Of a stretch of 64,000 bases of DNA, positions 26,401 through 62,694 are shown one piece after another. Source of the DNA: a virus. The DNA lies in IMG/VR virus record IMGVR_UViG_3300047557_002951, positions 62,001 through 126,000 of that record; one strand, 5' to 3'. Each line of letters begins with the position of its first letter. Position 1 is the first letter of the stretch. A program made the translations under genes and the position numbers. The notes below the pieces were generated by a model. The model searched no databases. It was given only the letters and a program-made list of their open reading frames with translations, and had not been told where the DNA came from.

Positions 26401-26718
26401 CTGCTGTTTTGAGTCTCGTATGAGATTGGTCATATTCTGAAAAACATCACCAATCTTCATATGTGGGGCTAACCCAAGCAACTGCATTGATTCATCCAAT
26501 CGAGTTTTCATCTCAATTGCCTTGGAATCATCGGATAAACTTAGTCTTGCATAAAGAACTCTTTGTTTATCTAATAATTGCTCTAACATTTCTATATGCT
26601 CTAGCTTCTCTTCTTTTGACATATTTTCAAAAGAAAGCATAGTAGAAGATATTCTTTCCTGAAGAAATCCGATTTCTTTCAATTCGTTCTGGACAATATC
26701 AGAATCAAAAAATGTCAC
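26386..26718 (-). CDS. DUF1825-family protein
   Basis: 110 residues. MTFFDSDIVQNELKEIGFLQ, MSKEEKLEHIEMLEQLLDKQ and YARLSLSDDSKAIEMKTRL match the small helical DUF1825 family of cyanobacteria and their phages. No activity known. It lies between gp59 and gp32 with a 4-nt overlap to gp59, so a role beside replication or recombination is possible. Confidence 0.8.
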   Translation of the reverse strand: MTFFDSDIVQNELKEIGFLQERISSTMLSFENMSKEEKLEHIEMLEQLLDKQRVLYARLSLSDDSKAIEMKTRLDESMQLLGLAPHMKIGDVFQNMTNLIRDSKQQLQDD

Positions 26719-27314
26719 AGCAAAACTTTTCTTATGATGTTCTTGTATTTATCTAGATCAAGCTTTAAAAATGGAGAATAATTTTTGATCTTCTTTGAAA
26801 CAATTTCCCAAATAGGATCAATAAGTTTCTCATCAAATTTTCCACTGAAGTGAATAATCTGATCTAATACTACTAAAGTTTCCAATGTTAGTTTACCGGA
26901 AAGATACTCTTTCAGTAATTTTGGGTGCTTCCCGCCATCAATCTTTAAATAATCTAGAAAGTTATTCCCAGCAAATACATCTCTTAGATCAGTTTCAAAA
27001 ACATAAGTTAAAGACTGTCGTTTCTTTTTCCATTCTAAGTATTGTTCATTTCCATTCTTTATGATATCACCAATCCACAAGGAAGATGGATCAGTTGCAG
27101 CAATAAAATTGGAAACAAAGAAGTCTACGACTTCATCATCCTTTTTTTGTCTTGATAGCTTTTCAAAAAAGAGTCTGTCTTTTCTCTTATGAAATGCATC
27201 AATAGAAGCCTTGATTTTTCCATTATATTTGTGGAAATCATAATTGTCACTGGAAAAGTGGCGCTTTAGAGCAAGATAAGTTTTAAAGGTTTCATGTGGT
27301 GTCACTTTACTCAT
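26715..27314 (-). CDS. 59: gp59-like loader of replicative helicase
   Basis: 199 residues, helical throughout. LALKRHFSSDNYDFHKYNGK, RKDRLFFEKLSRQKKDDEVV and NFIAATDPSSLWIGDI align in order with T4 gp59. gp59 binds forks, gp32 and the gp41 helicase to load it. Gene order 33-59-(DUF1825)-32 mirrors T4. Overlaps gp33 by 4 nt. Confidence 0.85.
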   Translation of the reverse strand: MSKVTPHETFKTYLALKRHFSSDNYDFHKYNGKIKASIDAFHKRKDRLFFEKLSRQKKDDEVVDFFVSNFIAATDPSSLWIGDIIKNGNEQYLEWKKKRQSLTYVFETDLRDVFAGNNFLDYLKIDGGKHPKLLKEYLSGKLTLETLVVLDQIIHFSGKFDEKLIDPIWEIVSKKIKNYSPFLKLDLDKYKNIIRKVLL

Positions 27315-46808: not shown

Positions 46809-47141
46809 ATGAAGGAAGAAGACCTCAACCAAGAAAACAATTCCCAGAAATCATTAGATTCATCCGAAGACCAGCCAAAAGAGGTAGGAAAAAAGCAAAG
46901 TTCATTATTGAATAAACTTATCTTTATTATCTGTTGTTCTGTGATTGGATTTGTTGGAATCAATTTTATTGCATGTAACTTTATGGTTCCTGGAACAATT
47001 AGTAGAGCAAATGTTCTTGGAGGATTAAAAAACCCTCCTCCTTTAGATTGCAAAGAATCTGAAAGAAGAGGGTATGAAACTTTATTAACTATTCTTACTA
47101 CAGTAATTGCATTAAGAACACGAGTTGAAGATAGTGATTAA
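46809..47141 (+). CDS. Membrane protein next to the endolysin
   Basis: 110 residues. Hydrophilic N-terminus of about 35, one membrane helix (LIFIICCSVIGFVGINFIAC), then ANVLGGLKNPPPLDCKESER and a helical end. AAGGA Shine-Dalgarno 7 nt before ATG. Convergent with the endolysin (4-nt overlap). A holin or spanin role is possible from location, but not shown. A GTG frame at 46745-46915 overlaps its start. Confidence 0.65.
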   Translation: MKEEDLNQENNSQKSLDSSEDQPKEVGKKQSSLLNKLIFIICCSVIGFVGINFIACNFMVPGTISRANVLGGLKNPPPLDCKESERRGYETLLTILTTVIALRTRVEDSD

Positions 47142-47695
47142 ATAACCTCACAACATCTCTTATAATACTTCTCACGATCAGCAAGTCCATTTGCTGGATC
47201 TCTGCCATTAACTCTTGCTGATACCTGACGACAAGTAGCACCAGAATCACAAAGTTCATTCATCTTATTTGTCATCCACCAGAAACCAGAAATTGTGAAT
47301 GGATAATTCTCTGCAACATAATTTACTCCATTCATTACATTAGGATCTTTAATATAATTCGCAAACTGCTGATAATTATATCTCCCAGTTACCTGAATAA
47401 ATCCAGCGCCTTTATATCTTGGCCCATCACCATTTTGAGTGTTTCCAAGATCTTTTCTTCCTTCATAATCAGCGCCAGAAGCAAGTTCTTTCATCCAACG
47501 ACCACCATTACTCTCATGAGAACATTGAGCGAGAAAATGGCGAATTCTTACTTTTGTTGTAATGCTGAATGTAGTCAAACACTTATGAAGTTCCTGCACT
47601 TCCTTATCTTTGATTAAAGATTCTGCACAGTTCCAGATATAAGCAAGTTGTTTTTTTGTTGGTAAGGCACCACCTTGTGATGGTGCCTCTTCTAC
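47138..47695 (-). CDS. GH19 chitinase/lysozyme-like endolysin domain (-1 frame of C39 peptidase gene)
   Basis: 185 codons in frame -1 to the peptidase gene. GH19 lysozyme features: LPTKKQLAYIWNCAESLIKD, ITTKVRIRHFLAQCSHESNG (catalytic Glu), YKGAGFIQVTGRYNYQQFAN (second acid region), then FTISGFWWMTNKMNELCDSG and VNGRDPANGLADREKYYKRC. The first plausible start inside the frame is GTG at 47599, which would delete the first 30 residues of the fold; there is no ATG before it. The domain is best explained as the C-terminal half of a frameshift fusion of about 423 residues. It would cleave peptidoglycan or chitin-like glycan for lysis. Confidence 0.85.
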   Translation of the reverse strand, partial: VEEAPSQGGALPTKKQLAYIWNCAESLIKDKEVQELHKCLTTFSITTKVRIRHFLAQCSHESNGGRWMKELASGADYEGRKDLGNTQNGDGPRYKGAGFIQVTGRYNYQQFANYIKDPNVMNGVNYVAENYPFTISGFWWMTNKMNELCDSGATCRQVSARVNGRDPANGLADREKYYKRCCEVI

Positions 47696-47701
47696 TTTTT
47701 T
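47665..47701 (-). other. Candidate dnaX-type programmed -1 frameshift signal
   Basis: Slippery A AAA AAG (47695-47701) in phase, next codon the stop TAG, 6-nt spacer (47689-47694), then a perfect 8-bp stem AGGCACCA/TGGTGCCT (47681-47688/47665-47672) with 8-nt loop. Confidence 0.75.
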
Positions 47702-48408
47702 ACTGGTTCAAAGATTCTGCCCCATCCATCATTGGGATGCTTTACTGTCCATCGTCTTTCTAGCATCCGTTTAGCATAAACAACTCTTTTCCCATTGGAT
47801 ACTGGACCAGAATACCCATCCAAAATTGAACCATATGGATCACTTACAATATAGTTTCCACTTTCGTTTTTCCCATGTACACAAATCATATGACCAGTTC
47901 CAGTAGGAGATAACTCTGGACCACGATGAAGAATTCCAATCACAACTGGACGACCAGCAGAAAGTTCTCGATCTAAATCATCAAATCCTAAATTATAATG
48001 AAACTTAGAGTCTAATCCATAAGACTTCAATACTCTCGTTTGAACATCATGATCTGTCGAATTCCCTTGTGCTAAAACTTTTCTAAGATAGGCATCATCA
48101 CCTTTTGTCCCTGATGGTAATGATCCTGGCTTCAAATACTCAAGACACATTGCACAAGCAGATGAATTGCAAGTAGAATCTGGTAGTTGATAGTTATCTG
48201 TTTGTGGATAGAATGGTACATCCAAAAGAATTCCTTTTAAGTCCTGTGAGATATTTTGTGATCTATAGATTCTTATCCAGTTAGATGTGTCATCTAATAA
48301 CTCTGGAACTTTTTCTGCCAATAGTCGTTCAAAATCATCTATTGCTGCACGATGCTTTGGATTCTTGTCGTCGTAGTACTTGAAAAAATTGTTTAAATCT
48401 ACTCTCAT
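47692..48408 (-). CDS. C39-type papain-like peptidase (N-terminal half of endolysin)
   Basis: 238 residues from ATG at 48408 (TTG at 48414 also in frame). Peptidase C39-like core: LDVPFYPQTDNYQLPDSTCN with catalytic Cys at STCNSSACAM, GTGHMICVHGKNESGNYIVS with catalytic His, then SDPYGS as Asp. Its stop is directly preceded by A AAA AAG. Alone it may be a peptidase; with the GH19 frame it makes a two-domain enzyme cutting both peptide and glycan bonds of the host wall. Confidence 0.8.
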   Translation of the reverse strand: MRVDLNNFFKYYDDKNPKHRAAIDDFERLLAEKVPELLDDTSNWIRIYRSQNISQDLKGILLDVPFYPQTDNYQLPDSTCNSSACAMCLEYLKPGSLPSGTKGDDAYLRKVLAQGNSTDHDVQTRVLKSYGLDSKFHYNLGFDDLDRELSAGRPVVIGILHRGPELSPTGTGHMICVHGKNESGNYIVSDPYGSILDGYSGPVSNGKRVVYAKRMLERRWTVKHPNDGWGRIFEPVKK

Positions 48409-49571: not shown

Positions 49572-50537
49572 TTACTGACTGATCCGGTTTACGGCAAGTC
49601 GTGCTCGGTTGAGGATAGAACCACTAAGGGGAACATATCCAAGGTCATCAGCAATTGATTGTGCCTTTGAACTCAGGGCGTAGTTGAGTGCTCCACGAAT
49701 GGCAGGAGCGTTAGAACCATTGCCAGTCTTATATGCAAGAATCCAAGTCAGAGTTGAAATTGGATAAGAAGTTGCACCAGCAGGATTTGGATTTTCGCCA
49801 GCAAGGTTCGCATCCAGTTTGATGCCATTCAGTGCGGCAGAACCAGCAGCAGCAGTAGGAAGAACAAACTTACCTGCTTTATTTTGAAGTGCTGCTGCTT
49901 GGAGTTTATTTGCTTTCACAAATCCAGTGTTCACATAACCAATCGCACCATTGCTTTGACGAATGCGACCAGCAACACCTTCATTACCTTTAGCACCAAT
50001 ACCAGTAGGCCAGTTTACAGACTTAGCAGCACCAGCAGTCCAACCACCAAATGCTTTCAGAGAGTTAGTAAATGCAAAGGTAGTTCCAGAACCATCAGAA
50101 CGATGAACCACAGTCATAGGACCAGCAGCACATCCAACTTGGTTCCAGTTCTTAATCCGACCAGCAAAGACATCAACTGCTTGCTTCTGAGTGAGTTTCA
50201 GAGTACATCCTGGTTTGTTATAGGCAATAGCAATAGTACCACCAACCATAGGAATTTGTACGACACCACGCTTTACTTTGGCGGCATCTGCTGCGCTGAT
50301 TGCTTCATCACTTGCTCCGAAGTTAATCGTTCCCGCAAGGAATTGACGAACACCAGCACCAGAACCAACGGACTGATAATTAACCCGATTCCCAGTAGCT
50401 CGTGCATAGTCAGCAAACCATCGTTGATAAATTGGAGCAGGGAATGAAGCACCTGCACCGTTAATAGTAGGTCCAGCAAGAGCAGCAGTAGGAACAGCAG
50501 CAACTAAACCAATAGCAAAAATATTTTTCAGTTTCAT
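49572..50537 (-). CDS. pstS: Phosphate-binding protein PstS
   Basis: 321 residues from ATG at 50537 (the frame opens at 50600 but covers the promoter). Signal peptide MKLKNIFAIGLVAAVPTAAL, then the PstS pattern: GAGASFPAPIYQRWF, SVGSGAGVRQFLAGTINFGA, VVHRSDGSGTTFAFTNSL, IGYVNTGFVKANKL. Binds phosphate in the periplasm for the host Pst transporter, relieving P limitation. Candidate Pho box upstream (50588-50616). Confidence 0.97.
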   Translation of the reverse strand: MKLKNIFAIGLVAAVPTAALAGPTINGAGASFPAPIYQRWFADYARATGNRVNYQSVGSGAGVRQFLAGTINFGASDEAISAADAAKVKRGVVQIPMVGGTIAIAYNKPGCTLKLTQKQAVDVFAGRIKNWNQVGCAAGPMTVVHRSDGSGTTFAFTNSLKAFGGWTAGAAKSVNWPTGIGAKGNEGVAGRIRQSNGAIGYVNTGFVKANKLQAAALQNKAGKFVLPTAAAGSAALNGIKLDANLAGENPNPAGATSYPISTLTWILAYKTGNGSNAPAIRGALNYALSSKAQSIADDLGYVPLSGSILNRARLAVNRISQ

Positions 50538-50571
50538 AAAAAGTTTTAGAAGTGAATTGACTTCACGAATA

Positions 50572-50600
50572 ATGATACCAGAAGACAAGCTTAAAGTCAA
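50572..50600 (-). promoter_or_regulatory. sigma70-type promoter of pstS
   Basis: TTGACT (50595-50600), 17-bp spacer, TATCAT (50572-50577) on the minus strand, 34 nt before the pstS ATG. Confidence 0.75.
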
Positions 50601-50898: not shown

Positions 50899-52365
50899 TT
50901 AGAACTTAAAGGTTGTTTGTAAAATTCCTCCCCAATTTGAAGAGTTACCAGCAAGGCGCTGATTATCACTACCATAAATGATAGCAGGGGTGACGCTGAT
51001 GTTATCAGACACTTGATACTTGTAGAAGATTTCAAGCATCGTGGACTTCTCAAGGTTCTCACCAGTAGGAGCTTGACCGATAGCAACACCAGCAGAGTTA
51101 CCATCAACAAATACATCATCCCAAGTGAGACCAGCAAACCAGGACTGACTATTGGTAGCATCACTTTGGGTGCCACTTACAGTGTTCCAACCATAACCAC
51201 CAGAGATGGAGGGAACCCAACCAGATTGGGTTGGTTGCCAGTAAGCGTTGATAGCATAACCGTTGGAAGTTTGACCAGGAACAAGAGTTCCAGAAGCGCC
51301 GTTCAGACCGTTGTAGGTACGAACACGAGTGCCTTCAGTACCATAACGATAACCGAAAGCAGCACCCCAGTTAGTACCACGATAACCGATTTGTGCCAGA
51401 GTATTCAGAGCACCAGAACGGTCAAACTCACCAGTGGAACTATCACTGCCGTTTTGGGCAACATAGTTTACGCCAGCAACAAGACCTGTGCTCTTGCCAT
51501 ATTGAATGCCGAAACCAGAACCAACTGCCTTGTTATAAACACCAGGAGCACCTGCTACTTGGAAGAAGTCAAGAATCTTGGAGTTATATGCCGAAGGAAT
51601 CCAAGAGATTTCAGTATTACGAACCAGAGCGCCAGCAGTAATAGTGGTGGTGTTATTAAACGCAGGGAATGAATAGTACAGACGATCGATAACTACATTG
51701 TTGCCAACTTCACTAGAAGTGTTATCTGCTTTATCTAGTTTGAAGATTGAAGAACTGGAACCGAAAGGATTGCTGCTAAAGTTGGCAGAACGCAAACGAG
51801 TACGAAGTAGATCCTTACCAGTGAATGAAGTATCCAGGTTCAGACGCAGATCGTAGTTAAATGCGGTGTGAGTGATATCACCATCTTTGGTCTGGTAGTT
51901 ATCAACACCACCGATTACGAAGTTTGCTTCACCACGCAGTTTGGTAGTAGTGGAGAACTGTTGTGCTTCAAGTGTAGTGACTTGTGCTTCCAGACCATCT
52001 ACACGACCTTTGAGAACTGTAAGTTCTTGTGCGAATTCTGCCTGAAGACGCTTAAGTTCATCAGTAACTTCAGTCACGCGGTCAAGGCAAGCATTCAGAA
52101 GTGCTGCTGCCTCATAACGAGTCATAGCACGAGCACCACGGAAGGTGCCGTTAGGATAACCAGCAACGCAACCATAACGCTCTACGAGGTTGCTAAGTGC
52201 TTGATATGCCCAATCAGTTGGTTGGACATCAGAAAATTGTGTAATACTTGTGACCTGTTCTTGTGAATATTGATTTACTCCAGATGTAAGGTCAGCAGCC
52301 ATCGCTGCAGGAGCAACAATACCTAGAGCAACAGGTGCAAGCATCAGTTGTTGAAAAAATTTCAT
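50899..52365 (-). CDS. Cyanobacterial-type outer membrane porin (SLH plus beta-barrel)
   Basis: 488 residues from ATG at 52365. Signal peptide MKFFQQLMLAPVALGIVAPA (cut after AMA), SLH domain at about 45-95 (ITQFSDVQPTDWAYQALSNL, GCVAGYPNGTFRGARAMTRY), coiled coil to about 150 (DELKRLQAEFAQEL, RVDGLEAQVTTLEAQ), then a beta-barrel with alternating strands ending in ILQTTFKF, with the C-terminal Phe for outer-membrane insertion. This is the full-length host Som/OprB-type plan. The sequence looks richer in G+C than neighbours, suggesting transfer from a host. It may replace or add uptake pores, or alter phage receptors. Confidence 0.93.
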   Translation of the reverse strand: MKFFQQLMLAPVALGIVAPAAMAADLTSGVNQYSQEQVTSITQFSDVQPTDWAYQALSNLVERYGCVAGYPNGTFRGARAMTRYEAAALLNACLDRVTEVTDELKRLQAEFAQELTVLKGRVDGLEAQVTTLEAQQFSTTTKLRGEANFVIGGVDNYQTKDGDITHTAFNYDLRLNLDTSFTGKDLLRTRLRSANFSSNPFGSSSSIFKLDKADNTSSEVGNNVVIDRLYYSFPAFNNTTTITAGALVRNTEISWIPSAYNSKILDFFQVAGAPGVYNKAVGSGFGIQYGKSTGLVAGVNYVAQNGSDSSTGEFDRSGALNTLAQIGYRGTNWGAAFGYRYGTEGTRVRTYNGLNGASGTLVPGQTSNGYAINAYWQPTQSGWVPSISGGYGWNTVSGTQSDATNSQSWFAGLTWDDVFVDGNSAGVAIGQAPTGENLEKSTMLEIFYKYQVSDNISVTPAIIYGSDNQRLAGNSSNWGGILQTTFKF

Positions 52366-52429
52366 AGAAATATTTTTGTTTGTTCTATAGGACAAAAAGT
52401 TAAGAATTACAACAGAATTCCCAACCGAG

Positions 52430-61763: not shown

Positions 61764-62694
61764 AATTACTCCTATTCTTTAGGAACCAATCAATTGTAAT
61801 TTTTAAACCATCTTCAAGAGAAGTTTTTGCCTTCCATCCTAAGGAATCCATCTTCGAAGTATCTAGTGCTCTACGAGGAGTGCCATTTGGTTTAGAAGTA
61901 TCCCAAACTAGCTCTCCAGTATAACCAACCAGGTTAGATACAATCTCAGAAAGTTCTTTAATACTTACTTCTCTCTCAGGTCCAATATTAATAATTTCAG
62001 GATCATCATAGTTATTCATCAAGAAAACAAGACCATCTGCAAGATCATCAGAAAAAAGAAATTCTCTAGTTGGACTTCCATCACCAAAACACATTACACT
62101 TTCCACACCAGAGTCTTTTGCACTCACAAACTTATTGATGAAACTTGGAATTACATGACACTGCTCCAGAATAAAATTATCATTAATACCATAAAGATTA
62201 TTTGGCATTACAGAAACAGTTGGAAATCCATATTGCTCTGTGTATTTTTTACACATCATATATCCAGCAATTTTTGCTAGAGAATACGAAATGTTAGTTT
62301 CTTCAAGTGGCCCAGTCATCAAATACTCTTCTTTGATAGGAACTGGAGCGTGCTTAGGATAAATACAAGCAGATCCTAAAAATAGCAACTTCTTGCAACC
62401 ATTACGATATGCTGCATCAATTACATTCGTTTGGATCTGTAAGTTTTCACGAATAAAGTCTCCAGGAATTGCTTTGTTATAGCCAATGCCACCTACCTTT
62501 GCTGCGCCTAGAAAAACATATTCAGGTCGTTCTTCTGCAAAAAATTCGTCAACATCTTTCTGAATTCTCAAATCTAATTGTGATCTTGAGCGAGTCAAAA
62601 GATTTGTATAACCATTAGATGTCAAATTTCTGGAAATTGCAGAGCCTACAAGTCCTCTATGTCCTGCAATAAAAATTTTAGAATCAGTTTCCAT
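61750..62694 (-). CDS. fcl: GDP-L-fucose synthase
   Basis: 314 residues from ATG at 62694. Rossmann motif [38 protein letters not shown] (catalytic Ser/Cys region), [11 protein letters not shown] (Y-x-x-x-K), [19 protein letters not shown]. Epimerises and reduces GDP-4-keto-6-deoxymannose to GDP-fucose. Overlaps gmd by 11 nt. Confidence 0.95.

Follow-up and report, generated by a model that had tools for sequence, protein, structure and literature searches.

The locus studied here raises the question of how a phage endolysin can be produced from a reading frame whose only possible start codon is located inside the conserved fold of the enzyme. The locus is part of the window, by which we mean the whole analysed stretch of 64,000 nucleotides (positions 62,001 to 126,000 of IMG/VR virus record IMGVR_UViG_3300047557_002951). 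Results of our analysis indicate that the answer is very likely programmed -1 ribosomal frameshifting, at a conserved site where a peptidase gene ends, which would give a free peptidase and a peptidase-lysin fusion; no protein, ribosome or reporter data are available for it. The relevant features are as follows:

47692..48408, minus strand: gene of a C39-like cysteine peptidase, with a 238 aa zero-frame product that ends in EPVKK and the stop (Pfam PF13529, PHROG 3617, PHROG 10051 'endolysin')
47695..47701, minus strand: slippery heptamer A AAA AAG in zero-frame phase, kept in 109 loci
47692..47694, minus strand: zero-frame stop TAG, abutting the heptamer and read as GTA G.. (Val-Glu) in the -1 frame
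47690..47694, minus strand: spacer UAGAA, 5 nt, between the heptamer and the hairpin (RNA folding)
47664..47689, minus strand: putative stimulatory hairpin of 11 bp (5' arm 47689-47679, loop 47678-47675, 3' arm 47674-47664)
47138..47695, minus strand: -1 frame encoding a linker and GH19 endolysin, 185 residues past the shift, in a predicted 423-aa fusion (PHROG 181, 9ms7)
47597..47599, minus strand: GTG, the sole candidate start codon of the GH19 frame, inside the second helix of the domain; a product initiated here would be without the first helix

The peptidase gene, which extends from the ATG at 48408 to the TAG at 47694-47692, encodes a protein with significant similarity to Peptidase_C39_2 (PF13529; E 6.7e-11, 43.4 bits, above the cut-off of 24) and to PHROG 3617 (E 5.8e-83), and PHROG 10051, assigned as endolysin, is matched as well. 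Its 3' end, GAA CCA GTA AAA AAG TAG, meets the X XXY YYZ heptamer criterion of -1 frameshift genes of dnaX/IS type, with A AAA AAG at 47701-47695. The zero-frame A_AAA_AAG occurs 5 times in about 16,100 codons of the 59 naive genes of the window, and the chance expectation that any gene of the window would end in it is about 0.02. Another in-frame A AAA AAG is present in the gene at 26715-27314 (minus strand), where the -1 frame continues with GGA TGA; this occurrence is probably due to chance.

The -1 frame is free of stops from 47707 to the stop codon ending at 47138, and its reading after AAA AAG is GTA GAA GAG GCA CCA, so that the predicted length of the fusion is 238 + 185 = 423 aa. The criterion for a GH19 endolysin, a full domain with profile support, is met by matches to PHROG 181 (E 7e-36), PHROG 9506, and the structures 9ms7 and 9hnv; the Pfam PF00182 score of 24.9 bits is just short of the 25.5 cut-off. 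The crystallised PWe2 endolysin (9ms7, residues 4-176) can be aligned to residues 16-184 of the -1 frame, and therefore the stretch that precedes GTG 47599 is part of the fold. The N-terminus of the domain is also conserved among the GH19 relatives. In the predicted structure of a relative in which both domains are encoded in frame (L088), helix 250-256 precedes the position of the GTG, which falls within helix 266-278, and the slip site corresponds to a low-confidence linker (residues 234-245) between two folded domains. The mean pLDDT of this model is 74 and its pTM is 0.46, so the packing of the domains should not be trusted. The dnaX/IS-type criterion of a long open -1 frame with a conserved domain is met as well, by GH19 in the window and by GH24 in most relatives.

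The third element expected of dnaX/IS-type genes, a downstream structure, is provided by the hairpin, which has a 4-nt loop, starts 5 nt past the heptamer, and is re-paired between clades. The 66-nt fold at this site has an energy of -19.6 kcal/mol (z -3.96), and none of 200 shuffles was as good. When the same -1 peptide was recoded synonymously, only 0.3% of trials reached the strength of the window hairpin (p 0.003). An Rfam scan of the region revealed no matching family.

The sequence anatomy described above is shown, and most of what had been predicted for this locus from the sequence alone is borne out by it. The A AAA AAG followed at once by a stop at the peptidase end held in coordinates and phase, as did the -1 frame open into a GH19 domain whose early part lacks a start codon, GTG 47599 being the only candidate. 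Product sizes of 238 aa and about 423 aa also held, as predictions from sequence. The hairpin, proposed as an 8-bp stem-loop 6 nt downstream, is real, but it is longer and lies one nucleotide closer. The claim that both products are made at a set ratio remains an inference only.

According to the proposed mechanism, ribosomes translating the C39 peptidase message would arrive at A AAA AAG shortly before the hairpin. Some of them would decode up to the TAG and release the free peptidase, while others would shift back by one nucleotide on the pair of Lys codons, so that they read AAA AAA GTA GAA and proceed through the GH19 domain to complete the fusion. The GH19 (or, in relatives, GH24) enzyme would then be made only as the C-terminal half of the fusion, in an amount equal to the fraction of the peptidase level that is set by the slip efficiency. 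That such slippage takes place in infected cells, and how efficient it is, we infer.

To evaluate the conservation of this arrangement, 80 loci were collected from IMG/VR by a protein search on peptidase similarity alone, 68 of them distinct. In 41 of the 68, A AAA AAG is present at or next to the peptidase stop, and a lysin occupies the -1 frame; the remaining 27 comprise 12 with an ATGA overlap and no heptamer, 2 single-frame fusions, 1 with a separate lysin, and 12 in which no adjoining lysin was found. In this sample, whose choice did not involve the heptamer, A_AAA_AAG is the exact spelling of every one of the 41 C-terminal Lys-Lys tails; it encodes none of the 73 Lys-Lys pairs located internally in peptidase genes of the whole heptamer set. 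The latter, extended by many loci from a pattern scan, includes 109 loci from IMG/VR and isolate genomes (82 clusters at 90% DNA identity), each with A AAA AAG at or no more than 3 nt from the peptidase stop and a lysin in the -1 frame. The heptamer followed immediately by TAG, with a lysin in the -1 frame, was found in 99 of 149 distinct junctions. The lysin partner is a GH24 lysozyme in all but four loci, namely the window, L090, L118, and L132, in which it is GH19. The hairpin of the window is joined to a GH24 domain in L012, and it follows that the lysin was swapped behind the cassette; L090, L118, and L132 have homologous but weaker hairpins. The peptidase tree provides no clean history of gains and losses, since its support is weak and the states are interspersed. 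In the loci in which the ATGA overlap replaces the cassette (L014, L018, L023, L074, and others), the lysin has a short additional N-terminal stretch and there is no strong hairpin.

The most natural objection is that these are two separate genes, the lysin being translated without any fusion, either through coupled re-initiation or at an internal start codon, such as GTG 47599 in the window. In its favor, the ATGA overlap without a heptamer in 12 of the 68 similarity-chosen loci is just such a layout, and a purine-rich stretch is located directly upstream of GTG 47599. However, 40 of the 78 GH24 clusters contain no ATG, GTG, or TTG ahead of the catalytic Glu, 71 of the 78 contain no ATG there, and a start with a Shine-Dalgarno-like motif is present in only 4 of the 78. 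The GTG of the window lies inside the second helix of its domain, and re-initiation leaves both the heptamer and the hairpin unexplained. We therefore consider separate translation very unlikely as a general explanation. In a few heptamer clusters (S-SRM01 L002, L044, and L022), an ATG or GTG is also present at the overlap and the hairpin is weak or absent, and coupled re-initiation may serve there.

The broken frame could alternatively reflect a decaying pseudogene in which the lysin is being lost, as the 12 of 68 sampled loci with a peptidase but no adjoining lysin found might suggest. This reading is all but excluded, and conservation refutes it. No stop interrupts the -1 frame ahead of the catalytic Glu in any of the 78 GH24 clusters, and in alignments A1, A2, and A4 it is the -1 frame that has the most synonymous change (61%, 34%, and 47%, vs. 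33%, 24%, and 27% in frame 0).

Programmed frameshifting is further supported by the conservation of the hairpins. A hairpin score of at least 20 was reached in 74 of the 82 clusters vs. 3.7% of 1620 in-gene control positions; the loci with an ATGA overlap and no heptamer scored 9-17. In the synonymous recoding test, p was below 0.05 in 64 of the 82 clusters, with a mean z of 2.67; the summed z of 24 overstates the case, because the clusters share kinship. The pairing of each 5' arm with its own 3' arm is better than with permuted partners (z 13.9). Because the paired register is not the same in every clade, the hairpins could not be aligned jointly, and the clades were counted apart. In clade A1, which has 14 pairs, pairing is 98.9%, vs. 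29-48% when the register is slid, and double changes affect 4 pairs, vs. 0.6 in shuffles and none in slid controls. Clade A4 shows double changes in six cells vs. 2.3 in shuffles, and clade A2 shows little covariation beyond shuffles. The Gly-Val-Asp/Glu at the start of the lysozyme domain is encoded by GGT GTT GAT, GGA GTA GAA, or GGC GTT GAT, and the opposite linker changes to match. Thus, the hairpins are selected at synonymous sites, and their sequence differs by clade while the pairing is retained. No comparable conservation concerns an upstream Shine-Dalgarno booster: a motif of this kind at 6-14 nt was found in just 11 of the 82 clusters, and the window is without one.

Isolated phages carry the cassette and several variants of it. 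In S-PM2, the junction is GCA AAA AAG TAA with the hairpin AGCTCTACTTC/GGAGTAGAGCT, identical in NC_006820 and in LN828717, the record of a deletion mutant; in both deposited records the annotated lysin start is 270 nt past the stop, within the domain. Three S-CAM7 isolates have GTT TTT TTT CCA CAG TAG, in which the slip site is T TTT TTT, and an 8-bp stem that begins 5 nt past it and includes the TAG; their annotated lysin is truncated as well. In ACG-2014f (GCA AAA AAG TCT GAG), it is the zero frame that encodes the fusion, and the -1 frame reads AAA GTC TGA; contigs L219-L221 agree with this. Its hairpin GGAGGG/CCCTCC (z -1.48) does not exceed the local-composition expectation. A zero-frame fusion with a TGA right past the slip in the -1 frame is also found in L011 and L218, on a different branch of the tree from ACG-2014f. 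In S-CAM7 as in these zero-frame cases, a different design would still yield the two products, which speaks for frameshifting. In S-SRM01, CAA TGA comes directly after the heptamer, an ATG overlaps there, and a good hairpin is lacking. In L088/L089, L050, and L125, the run contains 7 A, which gives a single unbroken in-frame fusion, and the hairpin is kept.

These last alleles bear on the possibility of a sequencing or assembly error, according to which the true gene would be one unbroken fusion and an A would have been lost from the run. This explanation is supported by the fact that the 7-A reading is that of the nearest GH19 relatives of the window (L088/L089). However, an identical count of six A with a stop is shared by 82 divergent clusters, which come from many metagenomes, and by two S-PM2 records, and an error cannot yield hairpins selected at synonymous sites or an equally spaced T-run substitute. 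It is refuted for the family and very unlikely in general. A random error is also unlikely for L088/L089, because the two assemblies, from two metagenomes, are identical over 2300 nt. The 7-A alleles may be true fixed fusions or may slip by other means; in either case, their existence is a reason to check the A count of the window itself in raw reads. Being a small minority, these alleles do not in our judgement undo the conserved pattern, and they suggest that the fusion protein occurs naturally.

Slippage of RNA polymerase on the A run, which would produce mixed mRNAs with the fusion encoded by those with one extra A, is another known route, described for Thermus dnaX (PMC5009743). The 8-T run of S-CAM7 and the 7-A alleles speak for it. 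Six A's are, however, a short run, as the same review speaks of runs of 9, and transcript slippage has no need for a hairpin, a narrow spacer, or AAG as the second codon in every case. We regard it as very unlikely.

Translational slipping remains the preferred reading, and its efficiency may depend on the tRNA pool. S-PM2 encodes its own tRNA-Lys (UUU) (L306 553-627), the tRNA expected to slip on A AAA AAG. One Lys tRNA (UUU) was seen in a marine Synechococcus genome, which is of single-cell type and may be incomplete, and two, UUU and CUU, in a Synechococcus lacustris MAG. Since the second Lys tRNA (CUU) is thought to lower slipping on AAG (PMC5009743), efficiency may differ by host; the host of the window phage is unknown. 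The role of both products in lysis is likewise inferred. Possibly, and this is our guess, the frameshift limits the lysozyme relative to the peptidase and tethers both activities. A bolder reading is that frameshifting of nearly half efficiency supplies free peptidase and peptidase-lysozyme as partners in one complex, and that the gene family has changed in the course of evolution between polarities (the slip lengthening or shortening the protein), between A- and T-type slip sites, and between GH24 and GH19 lysins, always with two products as the outcome; we would bet slightly against it.

Domains of these types are also combined in other ways. In S-CREM1 (L005 2332-3513), the order is reversed, with the lysozyme followed by the C39 peptidase in one frame, and the podoviruses S-CBP1 (L232) and S-CBP4 (L233) have a C39 domain with a second, glucosaminidase-like domain after it in one reading frame. 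The S-CBP4 frame is interrupted within C39, at a place where the annotation has no gene; S-CBP4 was considered as a member of the cassette and rejected, as its two-piece peptidase match has the appearance of an ordinary mid-domain frame break.

The gene convergent to the lysin in the window (46809-47141, plus strand) overlaps the lysin end by 4 nt and encodes a small protein with one clear hydrophobic stretch. A search of PHROG with this protein gave no match. A role in lysis, for example as a holin, is a mere possibility. A portion of the gene shares 82.6% DNA identity with a stretch of S-SZBM1 located far from the peptidase gene of that phage; in S-PM2 and S-SRM01, opposite-strand genes are convergent to the lysin as well. 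Genes at 49572-50600 and 50899-52395 (minus strand) appear, by a look at their sequences, to encode a phosphate-binding protein similar to PstS and a porin of cyanobacterial type that has an SLH-like region, which we infer to be host-like genes carried by the phage.

At the level of the family, the original prediction fared as follows. The alignment of relatives supports it, as the heptamer, its phase, the adjacent stop, and the re-paired hairpin recur in more than 80 divergent clusters, and sequencing error, named there as the main alternative, is ruled out for the family by the six-A count. Relatives in one unbroken frame, which were to count against frameshifting, do exist (the 7-A alleles above). 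The fusion with GH19 held for the window, where it represents a swap, the usual partner being GH24. A full match to the bacterial dnaX design held only in part, for the polarity is reversed relative to E. coli dnaX and no upstream Shine-Dalgarno is conserved. The absence of a known description for cyanophage lysins agrees with the literature searched, in which we found no report of ribosomal frameshifting in cyanophages or endolysins (most subscription papers were outside reach). The portion of the frameshift review PMC5009743 that was searched mentions no endolysin, lysozyme, or cyanophage, and a survey of two-polypeptide endolysins covers internal starts and does not mention frameshifting. 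The mechanism of -1 frameshifting is thus already known, and no report of it for an endolysin was found in that literature.

If our interpretation is true, this would be, to our knowledge and in the literature searched, the first endolysin made by programmed ribosomal frameshifting. Many T4-like cyanophages carry the cassette, the model phage S-PM2 among them, and frameshifting would explain the seemingly truncated lysins of several cyanophages. The natural series of variants, with A- and T-type slip sites, both polarities, many hairpins, and two lysin types, makes the rules of frameshifting and the stoichiometry of lysis testable outside E. coli.

Among S-PM2 proteins, the same two genes correspond to T4-like clusters GC 847 (hypothetical protein) and GC 848 (putative lysin), which were annotated as unrelated ORFs; the lysin start was misplaced inside the domain because the frameshift was not recognized. 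In mechanism, the closest known counterpart is dnaX of the reversed type, where tau is made by the slip and the gamma stop is in the zero frame past the site (PMC5009743). Both systems, if the cassette works as proposed, have an adjacent zero-frame stop, a shared N-terminal part, and a -1 slip to a longer product, and the cyanophage cassette uses A_AAA_AAG with a hairpin 5 nt downstream. It differs in being a phage endolysin gene, in having no conserved upstream Shine-Dalgarno and long, variable hairpins, and in belonging to a family with both polarities and a T-type slip site. With E. coli dnaX, it shares the identical heptamer and a simple hairpin, but the slip would extend the protein in the window and terminates it in E. 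coli. Neither the Shine-Dalgarno about 10 nt upstream of the site nor the early -1 stop of the E. coli type is present in the window; the polarity of the latter is met in ACG-2014f, L011, and L218. Endolysins Lys170, CTP1L, and LysIME-EF1 are each produced as two polypeptides from one gene by means of in-frame internal starts (PMC9430671, PMC4777826, PMC7098653). As in those cases, one lysin gene of the cyanophages would give a long and a short product sharing one end; however, the shared part of the former is the C-terminal binding domain, while that of the cyanophage cassette is the N-terminal peptidase, with recoding in place of an internal start.
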